Below are positions 2,531 to 20,782 of a DNA stretch of 64,000 bases, piece by piece. Below the pieces are notes generated by a model. The model saw only the letters and a program-made list of their open reading frames with translations. It was not told where the DNA came from and made no database searches. Origin of the DNA: Pannonibacter carbonis. Its GTDB lineage: Bacteria > Pseudomonadota > Alphaproteobacteria > Rhizobiales > Stappiaceae. Position 1 is the first letter of the stretch. Every line of letters begins with the position of its first letter. A program made the position numbers and the translations under genes. The stretch spans positions 1 through 64,000 of the forward strand of contig NZ_PUDR01000019.1 in assembly GCF_003012935.1 (NCBI RefSeq), read 5' to 3'.

Positions 2531-2689
2531 CGTTACACCGTTTGAAGCCGATTGCAAGTTGATCGACTTCAAAATTGTCGTGAACGGAAGTATAAGCAAC
2601 TGTAAAATAAGGCGTATATTCGACGGTGTTGGGCGCATTGTTATCGCTGATTGCGAAGTGTAGCGTATCATAGTGTGGCACAGCGAATG

Positions 2690-3244
2690 GAAAATACCGA
2701 GGTTAGCAGAGGCACAAAGAAAGAACGAGCTATGACGCCAGATCAATGGAGGACGATCTGTGATCGGGTCGCCAATGAGATGCTCGCGTACACTCGGTCC
2801 TTCCTCACGCCGCTTGGAATGGAAGTCGAATGTTACGTGTTTCCTGGCAAGCGTATTGGCGCCGCGTTTGGGAGCTTCCCGAAACATTGGAAGCAGATAT
2901 TTAGGAAGTCACTGCTTTCTGACGTGACGCCCCACGTCCTGCGACACAGTTTCGCGAGCATCGCCAACGATCTCGGATTCACCGAAATCACCATTGCCGC
3001 ACTCGTGGGCCATTCGAAAGGGACGATGACGAGCAAATATATTCACACGCTCGACACAGCGTTGATCATGGCAGCCGACACGATTTCCGGATACATTCAA
3101 GGACTACTCGACGGCGTCGAATTCAAGCAAACGGCATACGCGCTTGACCGAGATTCAAGGAGAGTTGCGCTCAGTCGGTTCCTAGCCAAAGCCACCGGGG
3201 AGTCGCCCAGCCACTCTGACGGAGATTCGCAGCTGGCTGCATAA
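2690..3244 (+). pseudogene. tyrosine recombinase, C-terminal catalytic remnant
   Basis: The segment from about 2835 on matches the end of a phage-type integrase: HVLRHSFASIANDLGF, then GHSKG, then the tyrosine nucleophile in TSKYIHT. The SAM-like N-terminal domain and the first catalytic arginine are missing. The ~50 residues ahead of the homology do not look like an integrase. It is probably the remains of an older element at the same tRNA. Start position is uncertain. Confidence 0.6.
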
Positions 3245-3859: not shown

Positions 3860-4663
3860 ATGGATAAATTGTCGCCATTTTCAGATCGATTCGGATTTCG
3901 CCCCCCCGACGCCGAGATCACTATCCGGGAAGACGCGCCTGACGTTGTGCGCGATGGCGTATTAATGCTTGGCTATGCCTGTGGCCTCGGGCCAGACCGA
4001 ATGCGAGACGCCGTCTGCGAGGTTCTGCTGAGGCGACCGGACCCGAACAACTGGTCGCCTGGGAACGTCGAAAACGAGGTTTCTCAACTGATCGATGGCG
4101 CGCCCTGGTATAGGGTCTATGACATCGCCGAACGCCTCTACCACGCCGTCGGGGAGGGCGACTACACCGACTCCCGGAGGCCAGAATTTGAGCGTCGCCT
4201 GAACCTGCTGTTTCACGAACATGGCGTTGGCTGGCAGATGAAAGCGGGCGTTATCGTCGCCCGCGGATCTGAGCCGTTCGAACTGGCCACCGGCGACGCG
4301 GCTCAAATCATGCGGGACGCTGGGACGCCAACCGCCGCCAACGAATTGCATGAGGCCCTCAAGGACATCTCGCGCCGACCGGCGGCTGACGTTACGGGCG
4401 CCATCCAGCATGCCATGGCCGCCTTGGAATGCGTGGCGCGCGAAATCGACGGAAGCACCGACACCCTCGGAAAGATCATCGGTCGGCTGAGCTTTCCTCC
4501 CCCGCTTGACACCGCTCTGCATAAGCTATGGGGGTTTGCCTCCGAACAGGGCCGTCACATTCAAGAAGGTCGCGAGCCCCGGTTCGAAGAAGCCGAACTC
4601 GTGGTCACCGTGGCGTCTGCGGTAAGCGTTTATCTCCTGCGGGCCTCGGGTCGAGCGAGGTAG
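3860..4663 (+). CDS. AbiJ-like abortive infection protein (AbiJ N-terminal domain type plus HEPN-like C-terminus)
   Basis: 267 aa. The N-terminal region (about residues 6-100; RFGFRPPDAEITIREDAP, then RPDPNNWS and YDIAERLY) resembles the AbiJ N-terminal domain 4 family. The C-terminal ~60 residues (LDTALHKLWGFASEQGRHIQEGREPRFEEA) resemble the divergent HEPN-like tail of these proteins, although the canonical R-x4-H is not obvious. AbiJ-type proteins act in phage abortive infection. The next gene begins two bases after its stop codon, so translation is probably coupled. Confidence 0.65.
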   Translation: MDKLSPFSDRFGFRPPDAEITIREDAPDVVRDGVLMLGYACGLGPDRMRDAVCEVLLRRPDPNNWSPGNVENEVSQLIDGAPWYRVYDIAERLYHAVGEGDYTDSRRPEFERRLNLLFHEHGVGWQMKAGVIVARGSEPFELATGDAAQIMRDAGTPTAANELHEALKDISRRPAADVTGAIQHAMAALECVAREIDGSTDTLGKIIGRLSFPPPLDTALHKLWGFASEQGRHIQEGREPRFEEAELVVTVASAVSVYLLRASGRAR

Positions 4664-6089: not shown

Positions 6090-7201
6090 TCATGACTGGA
6101 CTCTGTTCTCGATGTGGTCCGTCTTGGACCGGGTTGCAAACTCGTTGGGGGTGAGGCCGCCAAGGCTCGTGTGCGGCCGGTGGGCATTGTAGTCCACTCT
6201 CCATTCTTCGATCAGCCGGCGAGCGGTCGGCAGGTTGCGGAACATGTGCTCGTTGAGACACTCGTCCCGGAAGCGACCATTCAGGCTCTCGACGAACCCG
6301 TTCTGCATCGGCTTGCCCGGCGCAATGTAGTGCCACTCGACCTGGCTATCCTCCTGCCATTGCAGGATTGCCCGCGATGTCAGCTCGGTGCCGTTGTCGC
6401 TGACGACCATGAGCGGCCGGCCGCGAAGGGCGATGAGCGCATCGAGCTCGCGGGCGACCCGCTGGCCGGAGAGCGAGGTGTCGACGACGAGTGCCAGGCA
6501 TTCGCGGGTGAAGTCGTCGACCACGACCAGCACACGAAAGCGCCGTCCGTCGACCAACTGGTCGGCGACGAAGTCCAGGCTCCAGCGCTGGTTCGGGCCC
6601 TGTGGCATGGCCATCGGCGCCCGTGTCCCGAGCGCGCGCTTGCGCCCGCCACGCCGGCGCACCGTCAGCCGCTCTTCACGATAGAGCCGGAACAGCTTCT
6701 TATGGTTCAGCACGATGCCGTCCCGCCGCAGCAGGATGTGCAGCCGCCGATAGCCGAACCGTCGCCGCTGACCCGCCAGGGTCTTCAGGCGCTCCCGGAT
6801 CGTCACGTCGTCGGAGCGACGCGAGGCATAGCGATAGGTCTTCGGATCAAGCCCGATCAGGCTGCAGGCCCGACGCTGCGAGTAGCTCTTCTCTTCGATG
6901 GCCCAGGTCACGAACGCTCTCCGCGATCCGGGCTTCAGAAGTTTTTTCCAAGCGCCTCGCGCAACGTCGCGACGTCGAGCATCGACTCCGCCAGCAGCTT
7001 CTTGAGCTTCCGGTTCTCGTCGTCGAGCGCCTTCAGGCGGCGCGCGTCGGAGACCTCCATCCCGCCATAGCGATTGCGCCAATTGTAGAGGGTCGCATCG
7101 CTGATCCCGTGCTTGCGGCAGAGATCCGCCACCGCAATCCCGGCCTGGTGCTCCTTCGGCACCGCAATGATCTGCTCTTCGCTAAACCGGCTCTTCTTCA
7201 T
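6090..7201 (-). CDS. IS3-family transposase OrfAB (via programmed -1 frameshift)
   Basis: OrfB continues from the slippery site in the -1 frame ([10 protein letters not shown]...) to the stop at 6090. The rve integrase core shows all three acidic residues: Asp in WSLDFVAD, Asp in VVSDNGTE and Glu in [10 protein letters not shown], with the expected spacing. The OrfB frame is open back to 7082 but its true N-terminus comes from fusion with OrfA. Function: cut-and-paste (copy-out type) transposition of the IS. Confidence 0.88.
6935..7201 (-). CDS. IS3-family transposase OrfA
   Basis: 88 aa with a helix-turn-helix ([20 protein letters not shown]) followed by a leucine-zipper-like helix ([18 protein letters not shown]). 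It binds the IS ends and multimerises. Its last codons (LGKNF then TGA) overlap the slippery heptamer A AAA AAC at 6941-6947, used for -1 frameshifting into orfB. Start ATG at 7199-7201 behind a purine-rich site. Confidence 0.9.
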
Positions 7202-7298: not shown

Positions 7299-9062
7299 CT
7301 AGACTGCGACTTGAGGGTCGGCAGGCAGAGCAATAATGTTCGCAGCGCCAAACCAAGCGGTAAGTTGCGCCATAGCATTCTGGGAGAGCGCCTGTGTGAA
7401 TAATAGGGCCAGCCGGATCTTTGGCCGCGAGCACGCCACGTAGAACAGATTGCGATTGTTCTCGAAGAACTCGGTCTTGTCTGCAGGCGGACCCGGTTCG
7501 ATCCATTCGAGCATCTGGCCGAAGTTATATTTGTTCCACCCACGACCGACGATCACAAGCACGTTCTCGAACTCGGCACCCTTGACTCCGTGCTTGGTGG
7601 CGAAGGGCGTGTGCCCGTCGATGAATCGGTCGAGGGCGATCAACTCCGTATAGCGGACCGCACGCAGCTTCCGAAGTTGGGTGACGCGCCGGGATTCCCC
7701 TTCGACCGGCTCGGGGCCGGAGTCGGCTAGTCGCCGCTCGGCTTCTTCCACAGGTTCGGGAAGTCGCATGTGCGGCTGCGCGGCGATGAAGTCGACAACC
7801 TCGCCAATCGTCCCCGACGTTCGCAGTGCGGTCAGTGCAGCCATGGCGTCCGACCACGCCACCTTATCCGCGTGCTTGTGTATTTTAGGCGCACCGGCTC
7901 CAAAGCATCCGAACATTTCGCCGTAGCGCTTCGCCTCAAAGGCGGCGCAAGCCGGCTCCAACTGGTCGGACAGAAATTTGATGTGGGGATCGTCCTTTTT
8001 CAGCCAAGGATCGTTAAACTGGCCATAGATTGGCGGGATACTTGAATAGCCCTGCTCACGAGCAAGGACGCTGTGGCTGAGCATGAGAATCTTGGTTTTC
8101 CCAACCCCGAGATCCCAGCCCTCGGCCGCGAGCCTATGCTTGATGTGTGTGAAATATGCCTTTGCGGCCTCAGGGCTTGTATCGCCTGTCCAGTGCCCGC
8201 CGCCTTGTCCGGTCCGCCTGGAGCCGGGCCAAAGATTGGTGTGAAACACGCGCGCTTCGCCCGGCAGGGCTGGATCACGCACCATCTGGGGCAGCGCCGG
8301 CCGCATTCGATTGAGGACTTGAACGATCGGGTCGGTGGATCGGAAGTTCGCATTCTTGTCGATCACTTCCAACGCCGCGTGCTCGACCAGGCCGCAGCCT
8401 TCACCGTAAATCTTCTGCCAGTGATCGCCGAATAGCCCGATCTGTGGACCTTGGCCCGTGTCCAGGAACCACGCCTTGAGCGCATCGACGAAGCCAGCGT
8501 CGGTGTCTTGGTATTCGTCGATCAGAAGGATGGGATAGCGCGCAGTCAAGACCGATCGGAACTTGGGATAGGCGAGCGCCTTCATCATAAGCGCAAGGAC
8601 ATCGTCATGCCTCAAAGTCACCTGATGGTCGCTGACGCTGGGATATCCCAACTCGTAATGGACGCGGCGGGCTCCGATGCCGTCGACAGGTTCGAGACGC
8701 TCCGCCCAGCCATCAAGTTCGGGAACGAGCGCGCGAAGATTAGATTGGAAGTCCTGCAGAATGGACCAGCAAAAGCCGTGGATCGTATCGGGACGCACGG
8801 CAGGATGGGCCTGGATGCGCGAAATGATCTCGTCCTTGGCGACGTTGGTGTAGGTGATGCAGCCGACCTGCTGCCCGCGGCGAAGAAGCTCGGCGCCTCG
8901 TCCCTCAATCAAGCGGCGGAGCGCCTTGTCCAGCGAGTAAGTCTTGCCTGCGCCTGCGCCGGCTTCCAGACGGAAGCTGCGCCCATCGTCCAGACAGGCG
9001 AACATCCGTTCGAGGGCCACGCGCCCGGCGGCGTCTGCCGGATTTTCCGCTTCCTCAGCCAT
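7299..9062 (-). CDS. gajB: UvrD/Rep-family helicase, Gabija GajB-like
   Basis: 587 aa. Walker A GAGAGKT (residues 35-41), Walker B LLIDEYQDTD (near 182), GLFGDHWQKIY after it, and the C-terminal helicase motifs VKGAEFENVLV and FYVACSRP. Superfamily 1A helicase fold. In Gabija, GajB acts with the GajA endonuclease in anti-phage defence. It overlaps gajA by 8 bp (ATGGCTGA), so translation is coupled. It is somewhat longer than the usual ~500 residues. Could alternatively be the helicase of a related OLD-UvrD system. Confidence 0.8.
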   Translation of the reverse strand: MAEEAENPADAAGRVALERMFACLDDGRSFRLEAGAGAGKTYSLDKALRRLIEGRGAELLRRGQQVGCITYTNVAKDEIISRIQAHPAVRPDTIHGFCWSILQDFQSNLRALVPELDGWAERLEPVDGIGARRVHYELGYPSVSDHQVTLRHDDVLALMMKALAYPKFRSVLTARYPILLIDEYQDTDAGFVDALKAWFLDTGQGPQIGLFGDHWQKIYGEGCGLVEHAALEVIDKNANFRSTDPIVQVLNRMRPALPQMVRDPALPGEARVFHTNLWPGSRRTGQGGGHWTGDTSPEAAKAYFTHIKHRLAAEGWDLGVGKTKILMLSHSVLAREQGYSSIPPIYGQFNDPWLKKDDPHIKFLSDQLEPACAAFEAKRYGEMFGCFGAGAPKIHKHADKVAWSDAMAALTALRTSGTIGEVVDFIAAQPHMRLPEPVEEAERRLADSGPEPVEGESRRVTQLRKLRAVRYTELIALDRFIDGHTPFATKHGVKGAEFENVLVIVGRGWNKYNFGQMLEWIEPGPPADKTEFFENNRNLFYVACSRPKIRLALLFTQALSQNAMAQLTAWFGAANIIALPADPQVAV

Positions 9063-11124
9063 TCTCGCCGACCTTGCCCACGTTCACCGCGTCGCCGACG
9101 GCGTCTGCCACGATCTCAACCCCGACCTGCGGAGCCAGCTCTACGGGTGCAGGATTGCCCTCCGCCAGCCAGCGCAGCCCCTCGGCAATATATTGGGGGA
9201 CATACCAGTCGGTGTGCTCGATCGCGTGCTCCAGCGCGAAGGTGGACTTCTTCTGATCGCCAGCCAGGACGTAAGCCGCAAGCGCGGGGTCGCCGTCCAG
9301 AGGGAAACGCGCTGGATTGGCCAGGATGAAGGCGTCCTCGAAGCTCCGGCCACACGGTCCACCGGCCGCTTCCGGTATCTGGAAAGCGATGCGCCGAATG
9401 CCGGCGGTCTTTTCGGGAGCGGCTTTTCCGAGCAGCGCCTGTGGCGAAACATCGTCCCCGAACCAGGCTTTAAGGCATCCGTTGCTGGTGAACACACCCT
9501 CTGCGACCGGCACGGCCACCCGCTTTCCAGCATCATTGGGCCTAACTGCGTCGATGTCGGTGATGATGAGGGTGCGCAATTCAAGGAAGGAGAGGAGATC
9601 GAAGAATCGGTGGGCATAAGCACCGCCGACCTCCATCACCGTGAGATATTGGCTGCCGAGCTGCGGTTGTCCGGCGGCGGTGCTGTCGGTCTTGCGGATC
9701 ATCGCCGGGAGCAGGATGCGCTCCGCTGTGCCCTCGATCAGGACCGCCTTGTCAGCGAAAAACAGATCGCACCGCGTCAGGGTCAAATATTGATGCAAGA
9801 ATTCGCGGTCGGGCACGGCCGCGCCGCCCATGCCTTTGCGCAAATCCTTCACCACCGAGCGGCGCATGCCCACGCCGTCCGGAACCGAGAGAAAATAACG
9901 CATGGCCTCGAAGCGCGCTTCGTTTGCCATATGCGGTGAGTGCGTGGTGACGACGAACTGGACCGGCCAAGGCCTGTTCTCGTTGAGCTGGGCGACGAAG
10001 GCGCTCGTGATCTGGTCGAGCTGCCGGATGAAGACTTCCTGCATCTGCGGATGCAGGTGCGCTTCCGGTTCTTCGATAAAGATCAAATGCACACCAGCGG
10101 CGGTCGGGGTGGCCTGATACTCGCGGAAGAACCGCAGTAACTGAAGCAGCATGTAGACGAGGTTACGCACACCGAGCCCGTTGTATGTTTCGGGCAGGGT
10201 CATGCCATTGACGCCGACGTAGCGAACCTTGGTGTGATCGTTCAGCAGCTTGTCGACATCGAAACTCGTCTCGGTGACGAGGCCGGGATCGGAGAGACCG
10301 GGATAGCCGAACAAGTCGAACGTCGGCAAAAGCGAAGTGAGCTTCGCGTTGAAGCCTGCGTGTAAGTCGCCTTGAATTTGCTCAACTGCCGCCTTGAGTT
10401 GCTCTGCCGTCGTCCGCTTCTCGGGGTCGACAGGATCGGTGAGAGCCGATTGAAATAGCACCTCAACGACTTTGCCGAGAACGTCCCGCTCGCGGTGGGT
10501 GTCGTCGTCAAGGCCGCGCTGCGCATTGATGAAACCGCCGCGGACGAGCGCTGTGAGTGTTTTTGGTTCCAGCACCTTTCGATTGGTCTGGTCATTGGGA
10601 TCGACCGCTTCCAGCGACGCCACGTAGGCGCTTGTCACTCGGCTACCCAAAGCCCGAAACAAGGTCGAACGGTTGACCGCCACATCCTCGCCGACCGTGA
10701 GGTCAGCGAAGAGCGTTGTCGGCGCCGTAGGTCGAGGTCCGTATGTCAGGATGAGCCGTGCCTCGCTACAATTCGGATCGAGATCGACGATGCATTCGCT
10801 CAGCGGGCCGAGATCTGGAGCGTTGACGTCATAGGTGATGTCGATCGTGACCTTGATCGATGGAAGGAGTGCGATGACGTCTGGCGCAGTGCCCCCCGCG
10901 CGGAAGGCCTCGAACGCCGCCCAGAAGCGCTCGTGGCAACCCAGGGAAAAATCCTCCAACCTAAATGACGGGGCTTTTTCGCCGAGGAGTCGGCGGAATA
11001 GCTCTGCTATCGAGGTCTTGCCGCTATTGTTGCGCCCTACGATCAGCGTAGTGCGATCTTCCAACCCCACTGCGACACCTCGCAGAAGTCGGAAGTTCTC
11101 GATTTCGACCCCTTTGATTCGCAT
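9055..11124 (-). CDS. gajA: OLD-family ATP-dependent endonuclease, Gabija GajA-like
   Basis: 689 aa from ATG at 11122-11124 (preceded by aagagg). N-terminal ABC-type ATPase with Walker A GRNNSGKTS (residues 30-38) and the EEPEAHLHP region near 353. C-terminal Toprim domain with LIEGTAERILLPAM (near 461) and the acidic pair in IITDIDAV (near 521). This ATPase-Toprim order defines OLD/GajA nucleases, which nick DNA when nucleotide levels fall during infection. Larger than the usual ~580 residues, with an extra stretch between Walker A and the signature. Transcribed divergently from qatA, sharing an operator. Confidence 0.82.
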   Translation of the reverse strand: MRIKGVEIENFRLLRGVAVGLEDRTTLIVGRNNSGKTSIAELFRRLLGEKAPSFRLEDFSLGCHERFWAAFEAFRAGGTAPDVIALLPSIKVTIDITYDVNAPDLGPLSECIVDLDPNCSEARLILTYGPRPTAPTTLFADLTVGEDVAVNRSTLFRALGSRVTSAYVASLEAVDPNDQTNRKVLEPKTLTALVRGGFINAQRGLDDDTHRERDVLGKVVEVLFQSALTDPVDPEKRTTAEQLKAAVEQIQGDLHAGFNAKLTSLLPTFDLFGYPGLSDPGLVTETSFDVDKLLNDHTKVRYVGVNGMTLPETYNGLGVRNLVYMLLQLLRFFREYQATPTAAGVHLIFIEEPEAHLHPQMQEVFIRQLDQITSAFVAQLNENRPWPVQFVVTTHSPHMANEARFEAMRYFLSVPDGVGMRRSVVKDLRKGMGGAAVPDREFLHQYLTLTRCDLFFADKAVLIEGTAERILLPAMIRKTDSTAAGQPQLGSQYLTVMEVGGAYAHRFFDLLSFLELRTLIITDIDAVRPNDAGKRVAVPVAEGVFTSNGCLKAWFGDDVSPQALLGKAAPEKTAGIRRIAFQIPEAAGGPCGRSFEDAFILANPARFPLDGDPALAAYVLAGDQKKSTFALEHAIEHTDWYVPQYIAEGLRWLAEGNPAPVELAPQVGVEIVADAVGDAVNVGKVGENG

Positions 11125-11218
11125 AAATTTCAGGCCTCTTTTCTTGGTGGCCCCATGGGCTTTTGCTGTGCTCTCGGCGCAATGCACCCGTAGAATCTCA
11201 CTCTAGAAAAAATGTGAT

Positions 11219-11255
11219 CTTCGTGCTACACAATATGAGAATCCGTAGCGCGAAG
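11219..11255. promoter_or_regulatory. operator-like inverted repeat between gajA and qatA (same as upstream of hipB)
   Basis: Left arm cttcgtgctaca (11219-11230), 13-bp spacer, right arm cgtagcgcgaag (11244-11255); 10 of 12 positions pair. The left arm is identical to that of the site at 16368-16379 and the spacing is the same. It lies in the 207-bp divergent intergenic region, so one bound protein could control both the Gabija and Qat operons. The hipB product is the most likely binder. Confidence 0.75.
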
Positions 11256-11331
11256 AAGGCAGAATTGCTGCCGCGGTCGATTTTGACCGCCCAGGCCGCC
11301 ACTTCTCGGCGCCAAGTTGCTTGGAGGCCTG

Positions 11332-13326
11332 ATGATCCTGACCGACAATGAAACCAAGGTCGACCTCCTCAACAACGAGGCGATCGCGGCAACGATCATC
11401 AAGCTTTTACGCACGCGACCCGACCAGCCCGTTACAGTCGGCGTTCACGGCGACTGGGGCGCCGGGAAATCTAGCGTCCTCGAAATGATTGAGGCTGGCT
11501 TCGATGACGAGGCGAAGGTCCTCTGTCTCAAATTCAATGGCTGGCGCTTCCAAGGATTCGAAGACGCCAAAATTGCGCTGATCGAGGGCATCGTCACCGG
11601 CCTCATCGAAAAGCGTCCCGCCCTCACCAAGGCCGGCGAAGCCGTCAAGGATGTCTTCCGCCGGATAGACTGGCTCAAGGTTGCCAAGAAAGCCGGCGGG
11701 CTTGCCTTCACCGCCTTCACCGGCATCCCGACGCCCGATCAGATTCAGACCATCGTCGGCACGTTGGAAGGTTTCCTCGCCGACCCCGCAAAGCTCGCCA
11801 CCAAGGACAATCTCGAAGCCGCGGTTGAAGGCGTGAAAGGGCTGCTGAAGCCCAAGGGGGAAGGCGATTCAACCAATGTTCCTGATGAGATCAACGCGTT
11901 TCGGAAGGCTTTCGACGAATTGCTCGACAAAGCCGGCATCGAGCAGCTCGTCGTCCTGATCGACGACCTCGATCGCTGCCTGCCCGATACCGCGATTGAG
12001 ACGCTGGAGGCCGTGCGTCTCTTCGTGTTCACGTCGCGGACCGCGTTCGTCGTCGCCGCCGACGAGGCGATGATCGAATATGCGGTACGCAAGCATTTTC
12101 CCGACCTTCCCGACACCACCGGTCCACAGACCTACGCCCGCAACTATCTTGAGAAACTCATCCAGGTGCCATTCCGCATCCCGACGCTCGGTGACACGGA
12201 AACGCGCATTTATGTGACGCTGCTCCTTGTCGGCGCCGAACTCGGCGAGAATGACGCTGCATTCAACGCCCTCATTAAAGTCGCTCGTGAGCGACTGAGG
12301 CGCCCTTGGACCTCCGGTGCGCTCGACGCGGCCACGGTCAGAGCCGCTCTCGGGGACAAGGCGTCTCGTGCCAACAACGCGTTGGCGCTCAGCGATCAGA
12401 TCGGACCCATCCTGGCGAGTGGCACCAAGGGTAACCCGCGCCAGATCAAGCGTTTCCTCAACACACTTGTTCTTCGGCAACGCACCGCCGAAGCCCGCGG
12501 GTTTGGGGACGATGTCAAGCTGCCGGTGCTCGCGAAACTCATGCTTGCTGAGCGTTTCCTGCCCCGGCTCTTCGATCAGATCGCCGCAGCGGCAGCGGCT
12601 GCGGCCGATGGGAAATGTGCAGACCTATTGGCGCTTGAAGCCGCCGCGACTGCAAAGGACGATGAAAAGCGCCCGACCAAGCCGGAGAAGATCGCGTCGA
12701 AAAGCGATGACTCCGCTAAGGCCGCGCCCAAACTTGAGACCGTGAAATCGACGGAGAGCGCTCTCTTGGGTGAATGGCTGTCGTCGCCCGCTATCAAAGC
12801 CTGGGCAGCGGTGCCGACGGCGATCGGCGGAGTGGACCTCCGCCCCTATCTCTTCGTCGCCAAGGACCGGAAGGATTATTTCGGCGCCGCCTCTGTGCTC
12901 GGGCACTTGGCCGCCGTGGTAGAACAGCTCTTTGGCGGCAAATTCGCGGTACAGGGTCTCGAAGCCGATCTCAAGCGCTTGGCCCCGCCCGAAGCCGCCC
13001 AAATTTTCGAAGCCGTGCGTGGCCGTATCGTCGGGAGCGACAGTTTTGATACCGAGCCGCCCGGCGCAGCGGGATTGGCGGTTCTCGTCAAGGCTCACAC
13101 GACTTTGCAAAGCAATCTCGTCGACTTCCTCGAAGCGCTCCCGAGAGACCGCCTGGGCCCTTGGGTCTGTAGCGGCTGGGAAGGCGTTCTCAAGGACGGC
13201 GATGCAGCCCAACGCTTTGATCGACTCCTTCAGACTTGGGGCAAAGACGGTGGTGCGATGCTGAAAGCAGCCGCCAGTGGTGTACTCCGCACCCGACAGG
13301 GACCGAGCATCCGGGGGCTTAACTGA
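11332..13326 (+). CDS. qatA: QatA, KAP-family P-loop ATPase
   Basis: 664 aa from ATG at 11332, behind ggagg at 11323-11327. KAP NTPase: Walker A GDWGAGKSS (about residues 40-48) and Walker B LVVLIDDLDRC (about 205-215). The middle is typical of KAP domains, and there is a low-complexity Ala/Lys-rich stretch around 415-465. QatA is the ATPase of the four-gene Qat anti-phage system. First gene of the operon qatABCD; its stop overlaps the qatB start (TGATG). A 6-bp hairpin (gcggtc/gaccgc, 11273-11290) lies in its leader. Confidence 0.9.
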   Translation: MILTDNETKVDLLNNEAIAATIIKLLRTRPDQPVTVGVHGDWGAGKSSVLEMIEAGFDDEAKVLCLKFNGWRFQGFEDAKIALIEGIVTGLIEKRPALTKAGEAVKDVFRRIDWLKVAKKAGGLAFTAFTGIPTPDQIQTIVGTLEGFLADPAKLATKDNLEAAVEGVKGLLKPKGEGDSTNVPDEINAFRKAFDELLDKAGIEQLVVLIDDLDRCLPDTAIETLEAVRLFVFTSRTAFVVAADEAMIEYAVRKHFPDLPDTTGPQTYARNYLEKLIQVPFRIPTLGDTETRIYVTLLLVGAELGENDAAFNALIKVARERLRRPWTSGALDAATVRAALGDKASRANNALALSDQIGPILASGTKGNPRQIKRFLNTLVLRQRTAEARGFGDDVKLPVLAKLMLAERFLPRLFDQIAAAAAAAADGKCADLLALEAAATAKDDEKRPTKPEKIASKSDDSAKAAPKLETVKSTESALLGEWLSSPAIKAWAAVPTAIGGVDLRPYLFVAKDRKDYFGAASVLGHLAAVVEQLFGGKFAVQGLEADLKRLAPPEAAQIFEAVRGRIVGSDSFDTEPPGAAGLAVLVKAHTTLQSNLVDFLEALPRDRLGPWVCSGWEGVLKDGDAAQRFDRLLQTWGKDGGAMLKAAASGVLRTRQGPSIRGLN

Positions 13327-14222
13327 TGGGGACGTCGAGCGCTTTTGGAGGCCAAGGCGGCGGAACTCCCCTCGTGCCGAGTTGGCTTGGCGATGATGGC
13401 GCACCGCCCGCAGCCCCGGACGGAACTCCGCCTGGTGGCGCATCGCCAGACGGCGTGCCATCGGATGGTGCTCCTCCCGCCACACCTTCCGCGCCACCGG
13501 CAAGGCCGCCAATACCACCAGTAGCCGATCCCACGCGGTTCTCGGCGGCGCGCAACAATTTCTCGCGTTTTGCAGGATCAGGCGGCAGCGACCGCAAGAG
13601 CCTCGGCCGAGCCGTATCACACTATGTGGGCTCTTCCTCAGGCGGCGCCCGAACAGCAGCCGCAAGGATGGGATCGGCCCGCGGTGCTGGTAGCCGCCTG
13701 GTTAGCTTCCTGTCGGACGCTGTCGCCCGCGGCGCGACGGAAGCCCTTCGCTCGCTCAACCTCGGCGCTCTCGCAGGGAGGCCGATCGAAGAAATCTTTC
13801 TCGGTCTGGCCGACTATGTGTGTCCTGATGGGGGTTCGATCGACGAAGGCATCGCACGCGAAGCATTTATCGAGACCATCACGGACCTCGCCGGCGCGGG
13901 CATAACCGATCTTGACGGGCTCACCGCCGACCAGATGCAAACCGTCTTCGAACTCTACGCAACCAACGCGATCGAAGCGCGGCTGTGCAACGACATCGGG
14001 GCGAAGACGATCACGCTACCGTCGGACAGCCGGGAAGCGGCGCGTGTGCAAGCGCAACTGAACGACTTCATCCGACGTGGAGTGGCGGACGCGCTCACGG
14101 CCGCCCGCGCCGCGATGAGTGCTCTGACGCCCGACCGCGTACTCCAGTTTGTGGGGCGCATTTACGAGCAGGCGTTCGGGATTTTGCAGATCATGGGCGA
14201 TGCCGAGGCGGAGGGCGTATGA
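13326..14222 (+). CDS. qatB: QatB, Qat defence system protein of unknown function
   Basis: 298 aa. Begins MGTSSAFGGQGGGTPLVPSW, which resembles the start of known QatB proteins, followed by a Pro/Gly/Ala-rich linker of about 50 residues with repeated DG.PP units, then a helical C-terminal domain. No catalytic motif seen. It is required together with QatA, C and D in described systems. It overlaps qatA by 1 bp and qatC by 4 bp, so the four genes are translated as a unit. Confidence 0.82.
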   Translation: MGTSSAFGGQGGGTPLVPSWLGDDGAPPAAPDGTPPGGASPDGVPSDGAPPATPSAPPARPPIPPVADPTRFSAARNNFSRFAGSGGSDRKSLGRAVSHYVGSSSGGARTAAARMGSARGAGSRLVSFLSDAVARGATEALRSLNLGALAGRPIEEIFLGLADYVCPDGGSIDEGIAREAFIETITDLAGAGITDLDGLTADQMQTVFELYATNAIEARLCNDIGAKTITLPSDSREAARVQAQLNDFIRRGVADALTAARAAMSALTPDRVLQFVGRIYEQAFGILQIMGDAEAEGV

Positions 14223-15589
14223 GAAGACACGTCATCATCGGCCGGTACGGTCCTGGCGATCGCAATCGCTTTCCACTTGGCGACGGAGAGGTCGAGACAC
14301 GCCTTGATCTGGTCGCAGGCGAACGCACACTCGATCACGGGATCGGTCGTGCGATTGCCGATCTATCGCGGCTCGGCGTTCATCCTTCCGAAATCGGAGT
14401 GGATGTCCTCGTTCTGGCAGCTCACGTCCACGCCGCCGACACCCGTATCTCACGGACCAGCGAATCGCAGGATGGCTGGACCCGCGAAATCAGATTGATC
14501 GTGCCGGTTTCCGACCCTGATCGCTGGACCGCCGTCGCACCGACCTTCGTCCGGATGCTGAACTTTCTGACCGGCGATCGATGGTCGCTGGCATTTCGTG
14601 CTCGACCACGCCGGTTCACCAGAGTTGCATCGGTCGCTCCTGCGCGACTCATAGGGCCTCCGTTCAACGACCTCGCTCTCTTTTCTGGTGGCCTCGACAG
14701 CCTCATTGGCGCGATCGACGCGCTTGAAGATGGCCGCACCCCTCTACTCGTTAGCCACGCCGGCGAGGGCGCCACGAGCGATGCACAATCCACGATCTTC
14801 GAGGCGTTAAAAAGCCAATATCATGGCCGCGCTTTTGAGCGTTTGCGGCTCTGGATGGCGTTCCCGGACGGCTTCGTAAGCGGTTCTGCCGGAGAAAATA
14901 CAACACGGGGACGATCGTTTCTCTTCTTCGCACTCGGTGTATTCGCGGGCAGCGGGCTTGAAGCGCCGTTCACGCTCAAAGTGCCGGAAAACGGGTTGAT
15001 CGCCGTCAACGTGCCGCTCGATCCCTTGCGCCTCGGCGCACTCAGCACACGCACAACACATCCTTTCTATATCGCCCGCTGGAACGACGCTCTCCAAGGT
15101 CTCGGTGTCAATGGCACGATCGAGAATCCCTATTGGGACAAGACCAAGGGCGAGATGGTCACTGCCTGTGCCAACGGCGCACTGCTGCGCCGCCTTGTCC
15201 CTTCATCGCTTTCGTGCGCGTCCCCAACTAAGGGACGTTGGCAGGGGCTCGGCACACAGCATTGCGGTTACTGTCTGCCTTGTCTCATCAGGCGAGCGGC
15301 GCTTGTCGCCGGGCTGCATCCCGATCCAGATCCGACGACCTACACAGTCGATGATCTGACGACTCACGCGCTCGACACGCGGCAATCGGAAGGTGTCCAG
15401 GTTCGGTCCTTCCAGCTCGCGATCGAACGGCTGCGCGCTCGCCCGGCGCTGGCGCCGATTCTCATCCACAAGCCAGGTCCGCTGTTCGATGAGTCGCCGG
15501 CGCGACAAGCAGCGCTCGCGAGTGTCTATCGGCGCGGGCTCGAAGAAGTCGGCGCGCTCCTGGTAGGCGTCAGGACGCGGCCGGGATGA
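14219..15589 (+). CDS. qatC: QatC, QueC-like PP-loop enzyme
   Basis: 456 aa from ATG at 14219 (ATGA overlap with qatB). The PP-loop motif LALFSGGLDS is near residues 152-161, and the QueC-type cysteine cluster appears as SCASPTKGRW followed by HCGYCLPC. QueC makes 7-cyano-7-deazaguanine; QatC is its defence-associated relative, and the substrate in Qat is not established here. The N-terminal ~140 residues are an extra domain absent from housekeeping QueC. Confidence 0.9.
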   Translation: MRRHVIIGRYGPGDRNRFPLGDGEVETRLDLVAGERTLDHGIGRAIADLSRLGVHPSEIGVDVLVLAAHVHAADTRISRTSESQDGWTREIRLIVPVSDPDRWTAVAPTFVRMLNFLTGDRWSLAFRARPRRFTRVASVAPARLIGPPFNDLALFSGGLDSLIGAIDALEDGRTPLLVSHAGEGATSDAQSTIFEALKSQYHGRAFERLRLWMAFPDGFVSGSAGENTTRGRSFLFFALGVFAGSGLEAPFTLKVPENGLIAVNVPLDPLRLGALSTRTTHPFYIARWNDALQGLGVNGTIENPYWDKTKGEMVTACANGALLRRLVPSSLSCASPTKGRWQGLGTQHCGYCLPCLIRRAALVAGLHPDPDPTTYTVDDLTTHALDTRQSEGVQVRSFQLAIERLRARPALAPILIHKPGPLFDESPARQAALASVYRRGLEEVGALLVGVRTRPG

Positions 15590-16341
15590 CCGACACTACT
15601 CAAGCTGTCGGCGTCGATTTCCACTGCCATCTCGACCTCTATCCCGACTTCGAGGCCGCGATCGCAAAAGCGGAAGCCGCTCGGATCTACACGTTGACCG
15701 TCACCACGACGCCGAAGGCCTGGCCGCGCAACCACGAGCTCACGCGGCAAACCCGCTTTGTGCGAGCGGCTCTCGGCTTGCATCCGCAGCTGATCGCGGA
15801 GCGCGCGGGTGAACTGCCACTATGGGAGCGCCACCTGTCCGAAACACGCTACGTCGGCGAGGTCGGACTCGACGCTGGGCCGCGCTTTTACAAGTCGTTG
15901 GACACCCAAAAGCAGGTGTTCCGGCGTGTCCTTCAGTGCTGTGCCGACGCGGGTGGTAAGATTCTAACCGTCCACAGCGTAAGAAGCGCGGCGCAGGTCC
16001 TCGATATGATCGAAGAACATTTGCCTCGCGATCGAGGAACGGCCATTTTGCACTGGTTCACGGGCAGCCGCAGCGAGGCCAAACGCGCCGTTGCGCTCGG
16101 CTGCTATTTCTCGGTCAATGCGGAAATGGTTCGGACGGACCGAGGCCGTGCACTCGTCGCCGAATTGCCGACCGACCGGATCCTGACCGAAACCGATGGC
16201 CCGTTCACGCAGGTACACGGTCGCCCCAGTGAGCCCTCCGATGTCGAGGCGACGGCCACCTCACTTGCCAGGGTTCTGGGGCTTTCGCCGGAAGCCGTCG
16301 GGAAAAAGGTCCAGTCCAACCTTCGCACGCTGCTGGATTGA
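15586..16341 (+). CDS. qatD: QatD, TatD-family metal-dependent hydrolase
   Basis: 251 aa. Metal ligands of the TatD family are in order: VDFHCHLD near the N-terminus, VGEVGLD, LTVHS, LHWFTGS and TETDGPF. TatD enzymes are 3'-5' DNases; QatD is the last component of Qat. ATGA overlap with qatC. Length is normal for the family. Its stop is followed by the hipB promoter region. Confidence 0.9.
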   Translation: MTDTTQAVGVDFHCHLDLYPDFEAAIAKAEAARIYTLTVTTTPKAWPRNHELTRQTRFVRAALGLHPQLIAERAGELPLWERHLSETRYVGEVGLDAGPRFYKSLDTQKQVFRRVLQCCADAGGKILTVHSVRSAAQVLDMIEEHLPRDRGTAILHWFTGSRSEAKRAVALGCYFSVNAEMVRTDRGRALVAELPTDRILTETDGPFTQVHGRPSEPSDVEATATSLARVLGLSPEAVGKKVQSNLRTLLD

Positions 16342-16367
16342 GACGTTCCTTATGGAAATATTGTCAT

Positions 16368-16404
16368 CTTCGTGCTACATATTCCGCCAATCTGTAGCGC
16401 GAAG
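16368..16404. promoter_or_regulatory. operator-like inverted repeat upstream of hipB
   Basis: Left arm cttcgtgctaca (16368-16379), 13-bp spacer, right arm tgtagcgcgaag (16393-16404); 11 of 12 positions pair. It ends 7 bp before the hipB start codon, the usual place for an autoregulatory operator of a hipBA-type module. It shares its left arm exactly, its right arm at 11 of 12 positions, and the spacing with the gajA/qatA site. Confidence 0.78.
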
Positions 16405-16411
16405 GTAGCAA

Positions 16412-16747
16412 ATGCCCACTCCCCATAACCCTCCTGCCGCCGTGCGGCGGGCGCTGCGCAAGCTAGGGGCGGACATCCACGATGCCCGTCGACGCCGACG
16501 GCTGCCGATGGCGGTCGTGGCTGAGCGCGCTTTCACCTCCCGCTCAACCTTGCAGAAGATCGAGGCTGGTGACACCAACGTCAGCATCGGCATCTATGCC
16601 GGCGTTCTTCAGGCACTTGGGCTCCTCGACGGACTGAGCCAGGTCGCCGACATCAGCAATGATAGTGTCGGACAAGCGCTGGCCAGCGCCGAGTTGCCCA
16701 AACGTGTCCATCTCAAGCGGCCGACGGGATCTTCCCGCGATGGCTGA
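16412..16747 (+). CDS. hipB: HipB-like XRE-family transcriptional regulator (antitoxin)
   Basis: 111 aa. An XRE helix-turn-helix spans about residues 18-70 (LGADIHDARRRRRLPMAVVAERAFTSRSTLQKIEAG). It overlaps the hipA start by 8 bp (ATGGCTGA), standard for a toxin-antitoxin pair in which HipB binds HipA and represses the operon. The same operator also precedes gajA and qatA, so HipB may control the whole defence block. The C-terminal ~40 residues are short and probably contact HipA. Confidence 0.82.
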   Translation: MPTPHNPPAAVRRALRKLGADIHDARRRRRLPMAVVAERAFTSRSTLQKIEAGDTNVSIGIYAGVLQALGLLDGLSQVADISNDSVGQALASAELPKRVHLKRPTGSSRDG

Positions 16748-17987
16748 CTTCGAGGTCCATATCGATCTAAACGGTCGCACGCGCCCGATCGGATTGGCCA
16801 GGAGCAATCGCGTTCGAGGCGCAGAAACCATACTCTTCGAATACGACGGTGCATGGCTTGATGATCCGGAGCGATTCTCCCTGGAGCCCGCTCTTGCTCT
16901 GACGAGGGGAGCCTTCGCGCCTCCTGCGGGTCTCGCTACCTTCGGTTCGATCGGCGACTCAGCGCCGGACACTTGGGGCCGACGGCTGATGCAGCGGGCG
17001 GAACGTAGGTTTGCGGAACGCGAAAGCCGCGCCGTTCGCACGCTCGCGGAAAGCGATTACCTTCTCGGCGTCGCCGATGAGACGCGGCTCGGCGCGCTCC
17101 GGTTTCGCTGGGTCGGCGACGAAACCTTCCAGGCGCCAATCAGGGCCGGTGTTCCGGCCCTGATCGAGCTTGGCCGCCTGCTTCAGATCACCGAGCGTAT
17201 TCTCCGGGACGAGGAAACTGACGAAGACCTTCAGCTCATCTTCGCGCCCGGCTCCTCCCTCGGAGGTGCGCGGCCGAAGGCGTCGGTGATCGACCAACAT
17301 GGCCACCTCTCTATCGCCAAGTTTCCGAAGGAGACCGACGAATACAGCATGGAAACCTGGGAGGCGATCGCGCTGCGGCTGGCCGGCCAGGCCGGTATCG
17401 CGACCCCGCAACACGAACTTGTTGAAGTCGCTGGCAAGGCGGTGATGCTGTCGCGACGTTTCGATCGCGATGGCGCGATCCGCATCCCCTTCCTGTCCGC
17501 CATGGCGATGGTGGGCGCCAGAGACGGCGAGCGTGGCAGCTACCCCGAGATCGTGGACGCTCTGGCCCAGCATGGCGCGCAGGGAAAAACCGATGCCCAT
17601 GCGCTCTATCGGCGCGTCGTCTTCAACGTGCTGATCTCCAATGTCGACGATCACCTGCGCAATCACGGTTTCCTCTGGCTCGGAAGAGCCGGATGGTCGC
17701 TTTCGCCCGCCTACGATCTCAATCCGGTGCCCACCGATCTCAAGGCGCGCGTGCTGACGACGAACATCGACCTCGACGAGGGCACCTGCTCGCTCGAACT
17801 GCTCGAACAGGCATCGGAATATTTCGCGCTCACGCTGGCGCAAGCCAGAGAGATCATCAAAGAGGTCGCGACCGTGACCTCGGCATGGCGCGAGACCGCG
17901 AAAGCTGTCGGCGCCAGGTCGGCCGAGATCACCCGTATGGCCAGCGCCTTCGAGCATGACGATCTCACGCGGGCTCTGGCGCTATGA
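16740..17987 (+). CDS. hipA: HipA-family serine/threonine kinase (toxin)
   Basis: 415 aa from ATG at 16740. HipA N-terminal couple domain, then the kinase core: glycine loop GSSLGGARPKA (about 183-193), catalytic NVLISNVDDHLRNHG (about 304-318) and the metal-binding SPAYDLNP. HipA kinases phosphorylate glutamyl-tRNA synthetase or related targets and stop growth; the target here is unknown. Translation is coupled to hipB, and its stop overlaps the next gene by 4 bp, making a three-gene operon. Confidence 0.88.
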   Translation: MADFEVHIDLNGRTRPIGLARSNRVRGAETILFEYDGAWLDDPERFSLEPALALTRGAFAPPAGLATFGSIGDSAPDTWGRRLMQRAERRFAERESRAVRTLAESDYLLGVADETRLGALRFRWVGDETFQAPIRAGVPALIELGRLLQITERILRDEETDEDLQLIFAPGSSLGGARPKASVIDQHGHLSIAKFPKETDEYSMETWEAIALRLAGQAGIATPQHELVEVAGKAVMLSRRFDRDGAIRIPFLSAMAMVGARDGERGSYPEIVDALAQHGAQGKTDAHALYRRVVFNVLISNVDDHLRNHGFLWLGRAGWSLSPAYDLNPVPTDLKARVLTTNIDLDEGTCSLELLEQASEYFALTLAQAREIIKEVATVTSAWRETAKAVGARSAEITRMASAFEHDDLTRALAL

Positions 17988-19111
17988 CGAGGACTTTCTT
18001 TCATAGCTTCGATCCACCAGCCGCGAGCCCGGTCTCCGGGCCGACCGTCGATCTGGACGTCTCCGAGATCGAGGATGCCGGTATCCGGGAGGTGCTTCAG
18101 ACACCGGGCGCGGCCTATGGCGCTTGGTCCATTCTCGATGCGCTGCTGACGCCGACCGGCACAGGCACGCCATTCGTGTTCAAGGAGCCGCTGGGTCAAG
18201 CACGGGAAGTCAAGGTCGCGCTGTCCGGCCTGTTCGGGCGCTTCGTCGCGCGTGCCTACCTCGAGCGCTATTTCAACCTCTCGATCTTCGCCCATCTCGG
18301 CAGCCGCACGATCGACCTCGATCGCCGCCGTCAGGTCAAAATCACGCGCCTGTCCCGTGGCGATCTGCCCGACTGGATCGCCTGCGCATCCGACCTGTCC
18401 TCGCTGACAGTCGCCGAAGCCAAGGGTTGCCACGATGTCGGCGGTCCCGCCAAAGCACTGGACCGGGCATGGGCGCAGGCTCGGCGGGTCGACGTCACCG
18501 CCCGTGGCCGAAAGGTCACGGTGAAGCGTATCGCGATCGCCACGCGCTGGGGAATGGCGACGGCCGGTCCAGCCGATGCCCGCCTTTCGGTTCGGGACCC
18601 GGTCGAAGAAGGCGAGCCGCATACCCAGGAGGAGAAGGACGCGCTCTTCATCGGCATGCTTCGGCTCCATATCGCAAATCTCATCAAACCGCTCGGGCAT
18701 GCCGAACTAGCGGACGCGCTTCGCGGCCTCACACTGCAATCATTCCCACGAAGGCTCCAAGGGGAGACCCAGCGCGCGCGTTCGCTGCTGGACGCGTCCC
18801 CGGTGCGGGACGTGGATAAGGCGAGCGCCGCTATGGACGCCTTGGTCGGCGGTATCGTTACCCGCGCAGGACCGCTCACCGACACCGGTGTTGAACCCGC
18901 CGATCAGGAGGCGCTCTCCCGCCTCAATCTGCGGCCCATCTTCGTCGGGGTCGAACGCAATCTCATTCGCGCCGCTATCGACGCCGAGCCGCAAGCCATT
19001 CGCAGCCGTCTCGCCGACAAGGAACGTCCAGACGAGTTTGCACGGTCCGACCGTGCCGGCGGCTGGATCATCCCGCTCGGCCAAGAGCGACGCATCATTG
19101 GAGGCGCCTGA
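17984..19111 (+). CDS. putative PD-(D/E)XK nuclease encoded in the hipBA operon
   Basis: 375 aa, ATGA overlap with hipA. No named family recognised. The central part has a plausible nuclease core: GDLPDW (Asp130) followed by SLTVAEAKG (Glu145, Lys147), flanked by AHLGSRTIDLDRRR and a helix ALDRAWAQAR, as in type II-like endonuclease folds. The C-terminal half is unassigned. The location suggests a third component of a HipBA-linked defence module. Confidence 0.5.
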   Translation: MTRTFFHSFDPPAASPVSGPTVDLDVSEIEDAGIREVLQTPGAAYGAWSILDALLTPTGTGTPFVFKEPLGQAREVKVALSGLFGRFVARAYLERYFNLSIFAHLGSRTIDLDRRRQVKITRLSRGDLPDWIACASDLSSLTVAEAKGCHDVGGPAKALDRAWAQARRVDVTARGRKVTVKRIAIATRWGMATAGPADARLSVRDPVEEGEPHTQEEKDALFIGMLRLHIANLIKPLGHAELADALRGLTLQSFPRRLQGETQRARSLLDASPVRDVDKASAAMDALVGGIVTRAGPLTDTGVEPADQEALSRLNLRPIFVGVERNLIRAAIDAEPQAIRSRLADKERPDEFARSDRAGGWIIPLGQERRIIGGA

Positions 19112-19197: not shown

Positions 19198-19539
19198 ATG
19201 GCGATTACGGCAAAAGACGTTGAAGAACTCCACGCCTACGCGATGGGCGTGATGGGCCGGGCAGATCACCATGCGGGTAAGGTGAAGGGCATCGCCTTGG
19301 CGCTCCTCGGCGGAATCATCTGGCGTGGCGAGCCAGATTCCATCCGCATCCGCCGCATGGCGGGCAGCCCGGCCAACATGTTGTGGGTGACCATCTCGGG
19401 CAAGATTTATGTCTTCGCCTACAACCACGAGACCGAGAAGATCGAGATCCGAGATCGTACGCAGACTGGCGCGGTCTTGCATTCCTTCGACGACACCAAC
19501 ACCGCCGCCGACATCGAGGCGGTCTTTCGGGTGCTGTGA
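19198..19539 (+). CDS. hypothetical protein
   Basis: 113 aa, ATG at 19198 behind cggaggatat. Globular, mixed alpha/beta, no signal peptide or membrane segment. Features: MGRADHHAGKVKGIALALLGGIIW, then a beta-rich half (MLWVTISGKIYVFAYNHETEKIEIRD) and HSFDDTNTAADIEAVFRVL at the end. Small proteins of this look occur in integron cassettes and defence islands, as I recall, but I cannot name a function. Spaced 3 bp from the following gene, so probably co-transcribed. Confidence 0.6.
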   Translation: MAITAKDVEELHAYAMGVMGRADHHAGKVKGIALALLGGIIWRGEPDSIRIRRMAGSPANMLWVTISGKIYVFAYNHETEKIEIRDRTQTGAVLHSFDDTNTAADIEAVFRVL

Positions 19540-20092: not shown

Positions 20093-20782
20093 ATGACCAC
20101 GACACCGCCGCCCTGGCAAGCCCACGACATAGCCGGTTACGATTCAGCAATGACGGCGGGGTGCTCGACGCTTCTGGCAGAGATCATCGCCGACCCTGCG
20201 CGCCGAAAGGCCATCCTTACCGATCCGCGCGATCTGCATCGCACGCTGTTCGCGTCCTTCACGCCTTCTGGCCACAACGAATATGCGGGCACCTATCGCG
20301 GCACGCGAGGCACCACTCTGGCTGGCCGGAGGATGTCCTCTGAGAGCCAACTCGAAGTTGGGGGACAATTTGAGTTCTGTCCTCCCGAAGAAGTGCCCGC
20401 CCGTATGAACTTGCTGCTGGATCATATGCAGCAATGGCTCCGCGACGCCTCCGCAGACAACTACGGTAAGCTCCTGGGCCTCAGCTATACCTTCTGCTGG
20501 TTCGGCAAGATTCACCCCTTCCTTGACGGAAACGGTCATGTGCAGCGTGCGATATTCGCCGCCATGGCGACCGAGTTCGGCTTTCCGCTTTCAGCGCGTT
20601 TTGCGATCCATCCGCGTCCCTATGATCGACTGTTGGCGACCGCCTTGGAGATATTCACACGAGCGCCCGCCAACGAGGAAAATGGGGAACTGGCGTTGGT
20701 CGCGGAATATCTCGCCTTTTTCCTCGACGGGCCGTTCAATGCAGTGCGCAAACACATCAGCTCGGCGTCGCCTTACGACTGA
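20093..20782 (+). CDS. Fic-domain protein
   Basis: 229 aa. The Fic core reads KIHPFLDGNGHVQR (about residues 138-151). The canonical motif is HPFx(D/E)GNGRxxR, so the first arginine of the loop is replaced by His while the second is kept. Fic enzymes transfer AMP or related groups to proteins. No inhibitory (S/T)xxxE(G/N) helix was seen in the protein or its neighbours. The changed loop could alter or lower activity. Cargo-region gene, last before the ICE backbone. Confidence 0.75.
   Translation: MTTTPPPWQAHDIAGYDSAMTAGCSTLLAEIIADPARRKAILTDPRDLHRTLFASFTPSGHNEYAGTYRGTRGTTLAGRRMSSESQLEVGGQFEFCPPEEVPARMNLLLDHMQQWLRDASADNYGKLLGLSYTFCWFGKIHPFLDGNGHVQRAIFAAMATEFGFPLSARFAIHPRPYDRLLATALEIFTRAPANEENGELALVAEYLAFFLDGPFNAVRKHISSASPYD

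Follow-up and report, generated by a model that had tools for sequence, protein, structure and literature searches.

A predicted second HipB operator at the Qat defense operon of Pannonibacter carbonis

HipB represses its own operon, and the Escherichia coli protein also binds the relA, eutH, and fadH promoters, as described in the available part of PMC3920263 (citing Lin et al. 2013). In the CapK/CapS system, a kinase and a repressor govern their own gene and a neighboring immune operon through two palindromes; the available sections of that paper make no mention of HipA or HipB (PMC13373217). How Qat and similar defense systems stay silent and are released is poorly known. Here we describe a stretch of 64,000 nucleotides of Pannonibacter carbonis (the window; contig NZ_PUDR01000019.1), in which a Gabija pair, a Qat operon (qatABCD), and a toxin–antitoxin (TA) operon, hipBA-orf3, are accompanied by two copies of one inverted repeat, before qatA (site 1) and before hipB (site 2). 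Since the site tracks hipB, recurs before qatA, and is absent from 13 plasmid Qat loci without this hipB, HipB most likely represses both operons, hipBA-orf3 through site 2 and qatABCD through site 1. The openly licensed literature, which most subscription papers lie outside, yielded no report of HipB controlling Qat or Gabija.

The inverted repeat and its link to hipB

The two sites and the sequence block preceding the first are as follows.

11219–11255, no strand assigned: site 1, predicted second HipB-type operator, CTTCGTGCTACA-N13-CGTAGCGCGAAG, between the divergent gajA and qatA
16368–16404, no strand assigned: site 2, predicted hipB operator, CTTCGTGCTACA-N13-TGTAGCGCGAAG, just 5′ of hipB
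11194–11218, plus strand: conserved A+T-rich block (CTAGAAAAAATGTGAT in part), 5′ of site 1, similar to the block that precedes hipB sites

Both repeats had been noticed in an original prediction made from the letters of this DNA, and their coordinates, arm identities (left arms 12/12, right arms 11/12), and spacer length of 13 bp were confirmed. The two spacers are identical at 7/13 bases. Exact arms with a 12–14 bp spacer match only sites 1 and 2 across the 4,777,015 bases of the P. carbonis assembly, and a reversed control pattern has no match in the same assembly. With up to three mismatches, the pattern is found in 3 of 385 genomes of a class sample, namely that of P. carbonis and two others, both with the match directly before a hipB. 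Single 12-bp half-sites with two mismatches are not enriched within the window (13 found, 9.8 expected); the signal is the paired, spaced site.

The repeat follows close relatives of the window's HipB. In a sample of the order (297 genomes), a HipB match at E ≤ 0.001 is present in 71 genomes and reaches 81–100% identity in 11, P. carbonis included; the P. carbonis genome holds a single match at this threshold. In each of these 11, hipB is directly preceded by the site, which has no more than two mismatches and, in two genomes, a spacer of 14 bases. None of 19 loci with a more distant or partial HipB shows a site within six mismatches in the upstream sequence covered (up to 1.5 kb). A motif scan of a genome collection, using DNA only, returned at least 116 stretches. 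Among the matches listed, to which all counts out of 116, 95, and 83 refer here and below, 95/116 are followed after 7–10 bp by a hipB with 60% identity or more, the distance being exactly 7 bp in 74 of these 95, and the spacer is 13 bases long in 83/95 and 14 bases long in 12/95. The other 21/116 are not before hipB and comprise 16 copies of a different actinobacterial palindrome and five scattered matches. HipB and its site reach beyond the Alphaproteobacteria, for example into Anaeromyxobacter (88–89% identity). Because the site co-occurs with close hipB genes at a fixed short distance, this HipB very probably uses the 37-bp repeat as its operator. The same co-occurrence lends strong support to the earlier suggestion that site 2 is placed for HipB autoregulation. 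A gap of 7 bases separates site 2 from the hipB ATG (16412), and the right arm of the site, as read from the sequence, extends to AAGG, a possible hipB ribosome site.

Further palindromes and operator copies were observed alongside. The actinobacterial palindrome, a long one similar to the motif yet different from it, around GTTCGTACTACGAAC, was found at L048, L057, L062, and 13 other loci with no relative of the window's hipB nearby. In a loose, uncontrolled search, palindromes with yet another sequence stand before some distant hipB genes and not before others; one example is CTTTTACACTATCGGCTTTAGTGTAAAAG, ahead of a hipB whose product is 54% identical (L014). Pseudogemmobacter bohemicus carries three hipBA-orf3 copies on one contig (L068, L069, L139) with identical HipB and operator.

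The operon downstream of site 2 comprises three genes.

16412–16747, plus strand: hipB, helix-turn-helix (HTH) antitoxin/repressor (Pfam HTH_31, E = 1.7e-7; PDB 9u9g chain named HipB, E = 4.2e-11)
16740–17987, plus strand: hipA, Ser/Thr kinase toxin family (Pfam HipA_C, E = 5.6e-46), ATG 16740
17984–19111, plus strand: orf3, third gene, after hipBA, with the stretch LPDWIACASDLSSLTVAEAKG (D-x-AEAK)

An HTH_31 antitoxin gene directly before an overlapping HipA_C kinase gene, both above cut-off, is the layout of a type II HipBA, and site 2 would provide the palindromic operator of such systems. The NCBIfam model couple_hipB scores 27.0 bits on the hipB product, under its cut-off of 71.65, and Couple_hipA (HipA N-terminal domain) scores 18.5 bits on the hipA product against a cut-off of 22.5. 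A structure model of HipB built from one sequence is unusable, with a predicted local distance difference test score (pLDDT) of 52. The third gene, orf3, has no match in family or PDB searches; its stretch LPDWIACASDLSSLTVAEAKG looks like a PD-(D/E)xK nuclease motif. It is 70–90% identical in a 12-row alignment and occurs after hipBA in many loci, and its AlphaFold model (12 sequences; pLDDT 44) is too poor to judge.

Conservation of the site before qatA

The qat operon lies between the two sites, and the four PADLOC Qat models are matched in the order qatA-B-C-D.

11332–13326, plus strand: qatA, KAP NTPase (PADLOC QatA, 1042.9 bits); likely ATG 11332, open reading frame (ORF) from TTG 11317
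13326–14222, plus strand: qatB (PADLOC QatB, E = 4.8e-132)
14219–15589, plus strand: qatC, QueC-like (PADLOC QatC, E = 1.3e-203, from ORF residue 79); start set at ATG 14219, ORF from 13985
15586–16341, plus strand: qatD, TatD-like (PADLOC QatD, E = 5.7e-121)

Whole-genome scans of the sources of 50 + 49 loci (locus L150 left out) covered 89 different bacterial genomes and five virus records. The first scan took in 49 genomes at up to three mismatches, and the second 47 genomes or records (40 new genomes) at up to two mismatches to a slightly looser pattern; sites with a 13-base spacer only are detected. A site away from hipB is present in 6 of these 89 other bacterial genomes, each time upstream of qatA in a qat–hipBA locus: Mesorhizobium ephedrae, Mesorhizobium sp. 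SCN18 (a metagenome-assembled genome), Rhizobium tropici PTD1, Mesorhizobium albiziae, Afipia birgiae, and Sphingomonas trueperi. The second site thus stands before qatA in all six other qatA–hipBA loci found, or 7/7 with the window. It precedes the hipB site by 3.6 kb in M. albiziae, whose qat operon is broken, and by 5.1 kb in the other five relatives. Second or third copies of hipB account for the further extra sites, which lie in G695, G710, G712, and G726.

Viewed from hipB, qat sequence was seen upstream in 10/95 hipB-linked loci; the six with qatA carry the second site, and the four with only a qatD remnant do not. No qat sequence was seen upstream in the other 85/95, of which L056 covers only 380 bases; three that had little upstream sequence were extended and still showed no qat. 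The site is also missing where Qat occurs without this hipB. In seven plasmid Qat loci (QatA 43–70% identical) whose stretch contains no hipB relative, nothing resembles the site at under six mismatches, L219 covering just 100 bases 5′ of qatA. Six further plasmid loci (QatA 43–46%), where the absence of hipB was judged from annotation over 5.5 kb on each side, have none under six mismatches either. The best resemblance across these 13 loci is at 6–8 mismatches, and no site was found on a plasmid of Sinorhizobium fredii that carries a fragment of qatA.

In some of the plasmid loci, Qat likewise has TA-type genes as neighbors. In a Celeribacter plasmid (L218, 6126–8968), an annotated Xre/RES pair overlaps the qatA start, and in a Delftia plasmid (L216, 4513–15560), again by annotation, Qat is preceded by an AbiEii-type gene and by a restriction endonuclease and is followed by a Gabija-like pair. 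Most of the 13 have no TA-type pair directly at qatA.

The qatA site itself is well preserved, with arms identical at 22/24 bases between the window and each of the six relatives, where the qatA DNA is 83–85% identical. Upstream, the block at 11194–11218 has 13–18/25 bases in common with the six relatives and 15/25 with the region 5′ of site 2. It takes the form TAG-A-rich-TTGTAA in the relatives and at hipB, is oriented towards qatA, and is probably part of a promoter reading in that direction. Site 1 lies 76 bases from the likely qatA ATG (11332), which was picked from the translation and from a GGAGG sequence.

In the relatives, the qatA sites carry CTTCATGCTACA and CGTAGCACGAAG, while among hipB sites with a 13-bp spacer the fifth place is G in 83/83 and the right arm begins with T in 78/83. 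The two types stay distinct across species, which argues against exchange between the sites, and the differences suggest that HipB may bind the qatA site with another affinity.

A number of observations weigh against control of Qat by HipB. At two fixed positions, the qatA operator of the relatives deviates from the hipB consensus, so that its binding could be weak, and a consensus promoter scan gave no sigma-70-like promoter at site 1 or site 2. The qatA-type pattern is rare, occurring in 1 of 397 genomes of the order, that of P. carbonis itself. The six relatives are not all independent, since R. tropici and A. birgiae have the same qatA DNA, and the qatA DNA of M. ephedrae and that of S. 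trueperi are 98% identical; about five lineages therefore remain in all, the window included. Finally, the four loci with a qatD remnant retain hipBA and lack the second site, and M. albiziae retains the site before a broken operon, so that the link between Qat and HipB is not indispensable. In a HipB tree (77 rows, 111 columns), the qat label takes two changes, a value reached or undercut in 158 of 500 shuffles, which does not distinguish one origin of the Qat-linked HipBs from several. HipB is likewise identical in R. tropici PTD1 and A. birgiae (L198, L200), and this shared pair of sequences points to a recent transfer between families.

Gabija and other readings of the repeats

The Gabija pair, identified by PADLOC and Pfam as gajA (AAA/OLD TOPRIM) with gajB (UvrD-like helicase), runs divergently from qatA.

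9055–11124, minus strand: gajA, Gabija OLD-like nuclease (PADLOC GajA, E = 1.4e-281); likely ATG 11124, ORF extending to GTG 11187
7299–9062, minus strand: gajB, Gabija helicase (PADLOC GajB, E = 1.7e-265)

The gajA start was likewise picked from the translation, and the PADLOC GajA match begins at ORF residue 22, which is ATG 11124. The original prediction was of one HipB regulon joining Gabija, Qat, and hipBA, in which site 1 would serve both directions and gajA would be repressed from it along with qatA. The geometry is favorable, as site 1 occupies the only gap between the divergent genes (207 bases between their likely starts) and lies 94 bases from the likely gajA ATG; control of gajA by the same operator is therefore possible. 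Nevertheless, in homologous islands the repeat is conserved at qatA and not at gajA. The Qat part of the prediction is strongly supported (6/6 loci, and no site in the 13 plasmid Qat loci without this hipB), while Gabija is found at none of the six qatA–hipBA relatives. Four close plasmid Gabijas (GajA 75–86% identical) have no site within four mismatches in the 16–20 kb read, and their gajA upstream regions cannot be aligned with that of the window. The conserved 5′ block is oriented to qatA, as at hipB, and the consensus scan located no gajA promoter.

In five of the six relatives, the divergent position is held by an Mrr-like endonuclease, a 301-residue protein encoded at a distance of about 180 bases from the site; in A. 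birgiae its sequence is partly masked. Both of the two that were checked match Mrr_cat. M. albiziae has no divergent gene of this type, and the window has no relative of the endonuclease. Gabija thus occupies the place of another defense-type gene, and looks like a late local neighbor rather than a conserved member of the HipB regulon. On the other hand, a slot that is filled by a defense gene in most relatives may regularly fall under the operator. A regulon that includes Gabija is on balance possible though not favored.

The Mrr-like endonuclease was also seen elsewhere. Relatives (56–60% identical) stand directly before qatA and in the same direction in Sulfitobacter and Roseivivax (L229, 4474–5379; L230, 4457–5362), and a remnant is present in Sinorhizobium fredii (L214, 8505–9005). 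Judged from these loci, it is a recurrent Qat companion.

The copy at qatA might instead be a relic without regulatory effect, left when qat was inserted into, or duplicated together with, a hipB promoter region. The 15/25 bases alike 5′ of sites 1 and 2 are what a duplicated promoter would leave. Against this, the arms are kept at 22/24 bases, compared with only 9–12/24 in neighboring non-coding bases (47–70 from the left end of the qatA site), and the site stands in every other qatA–hipBA locus. Though 24 conserved bases over about five lineages are limited evidence against a relic, we regard it as improbable.

It is very unlikely that the repeats function in RNA, as hairpins or terminators, and not as DNA operators. 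The 12-bp arms could pair, and two terminator-like sites lie near site 1, though neither is at site 1. Yet 12 Watson–Crick pairs are formed in just 3/83 hipB sites, two G–T pairs occur in the middle in 52/83, and the six relatives' qatA sites share the same two mismatches; RNA pairing is therefore not what is conserved. The fixed position 7–10 bp before hipB also argues against hairpins. Five virus contigs (L161–L165) contain intergenic palindromes that fit the motif without a hipB, as a hairpin might, that of L164 being much longer than the motif. No relative of hipB, qat, or gaj reaches an E value below 0.01 on these contigs, and the palindromes were set aside as unrelated. Least probable of all is that the sites are recombination or transposition ends of a movable qat cassette, for although they flank qatABCD exactly, 85/95 hipB-linked sites have no qat sequence seen upstream and the qatA and hipB types stay distinct across relatives.

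Proposed control and comparison with known systems

In the reading that we prefer, HipB, alone or with HipA, would bind site 2 and repress hipBA-orf3, and would bind site 1 as a second copy of its operator and repress qatABCD. Qat would thereby be coupled to the state of the TA pair, and a drop in HipB would release Qat together with HipA. Candidate triggers for such a drop are proteolysis, a shut-off of translation, transfer of the DNA to a cell that lacks HipB, and titration. The relatives' qatA operator, diverged at fixed positions, may be released at another HipB level, and gajA may be caught by the operator from its distance of 94 bases. It is tempting, if rather doubtful, to extend this to an immune cassette of modular build with HipBA as its master switch, in which one operator would govern Qat and whichever divergent defense gene is plugged in, the Mrr-like endonuclease in five relatives and Gabija in the window. 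Loss of the antitoxin, through phage attack or arrival in a new cell, would then fire the kinase and two defenses simultaneously, and the kinase would penalize loss of the cassette. Should HipB control Qat, two layers of defense would be linked by a TA repressor that has a conserved second operator at an immune operon, and this would explain why the TA pair travels with Qat.

The surroundings of the locus contain further genes of island type. Upstream are a tRNA-Met (485–561), a short phage-integrase-like ORF (2651–3244), an AbiJ_NTD4 protein (3860–4663), and a transposase with an integrase core (6090–7082); a tRNA-Asp call at 4225–4297 sits within the AbiJ ORF and may be false. Downstream are an integron-cassette-like protein (19198–19539) and a Fic protein (20093–20782).

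The E. coli HipB operator is shorter than the operator in the window, a 37-bp repeat with 12-bp arms. As with E. coli HipBA, a HipB-type repressor has, here by prediction, its own palindrome at promoters outside its operon. The E. coli targets named in the available part of PMC3920263 are scattered housekeeping promoters, whereas the target in the window is an adjacent immune operon. The arrangement is analogous to that given for CapK/CapS in the available sections of its description, with the same site before the regulator and before the defense operon, conserved here in 7/7 qatA–hipBA loci. The proteins differ, CapS being a STAS-wHTH protein and CapK resembling anti-sigma kinases, whereas the repressor in the window belongs to HTH_31 and the kinase to HipA_C. 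The pair in the window, a HipA-type kinase with an HTH antitoxin, is located downstream of Qat.

Small repressors dedicated to defense are also known. As far as the available text of PMC12255303 describes it, RptR is dedicated to a defense island, and regulators of the BrxR/CapW/CapH type, including the WYL regulator of cyclic-oligonucleotide-based antiphage signaling systems, are presented in the accessible sources as dedicated repressors of immune operons; unlike the HipB of the window, none of these is a TA antitoxin. HipAD (DS-6) involves a HipA-related kinase in phage defense, but its partner is unrelated to HipB, and the sections of PMC13092281 at hand describe no control of a second system. 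Repressors that also have an operator at a neighboring immune operon are already known; what is new here is that the repressor is predicted to be the antitoxin of a HipBA pair.

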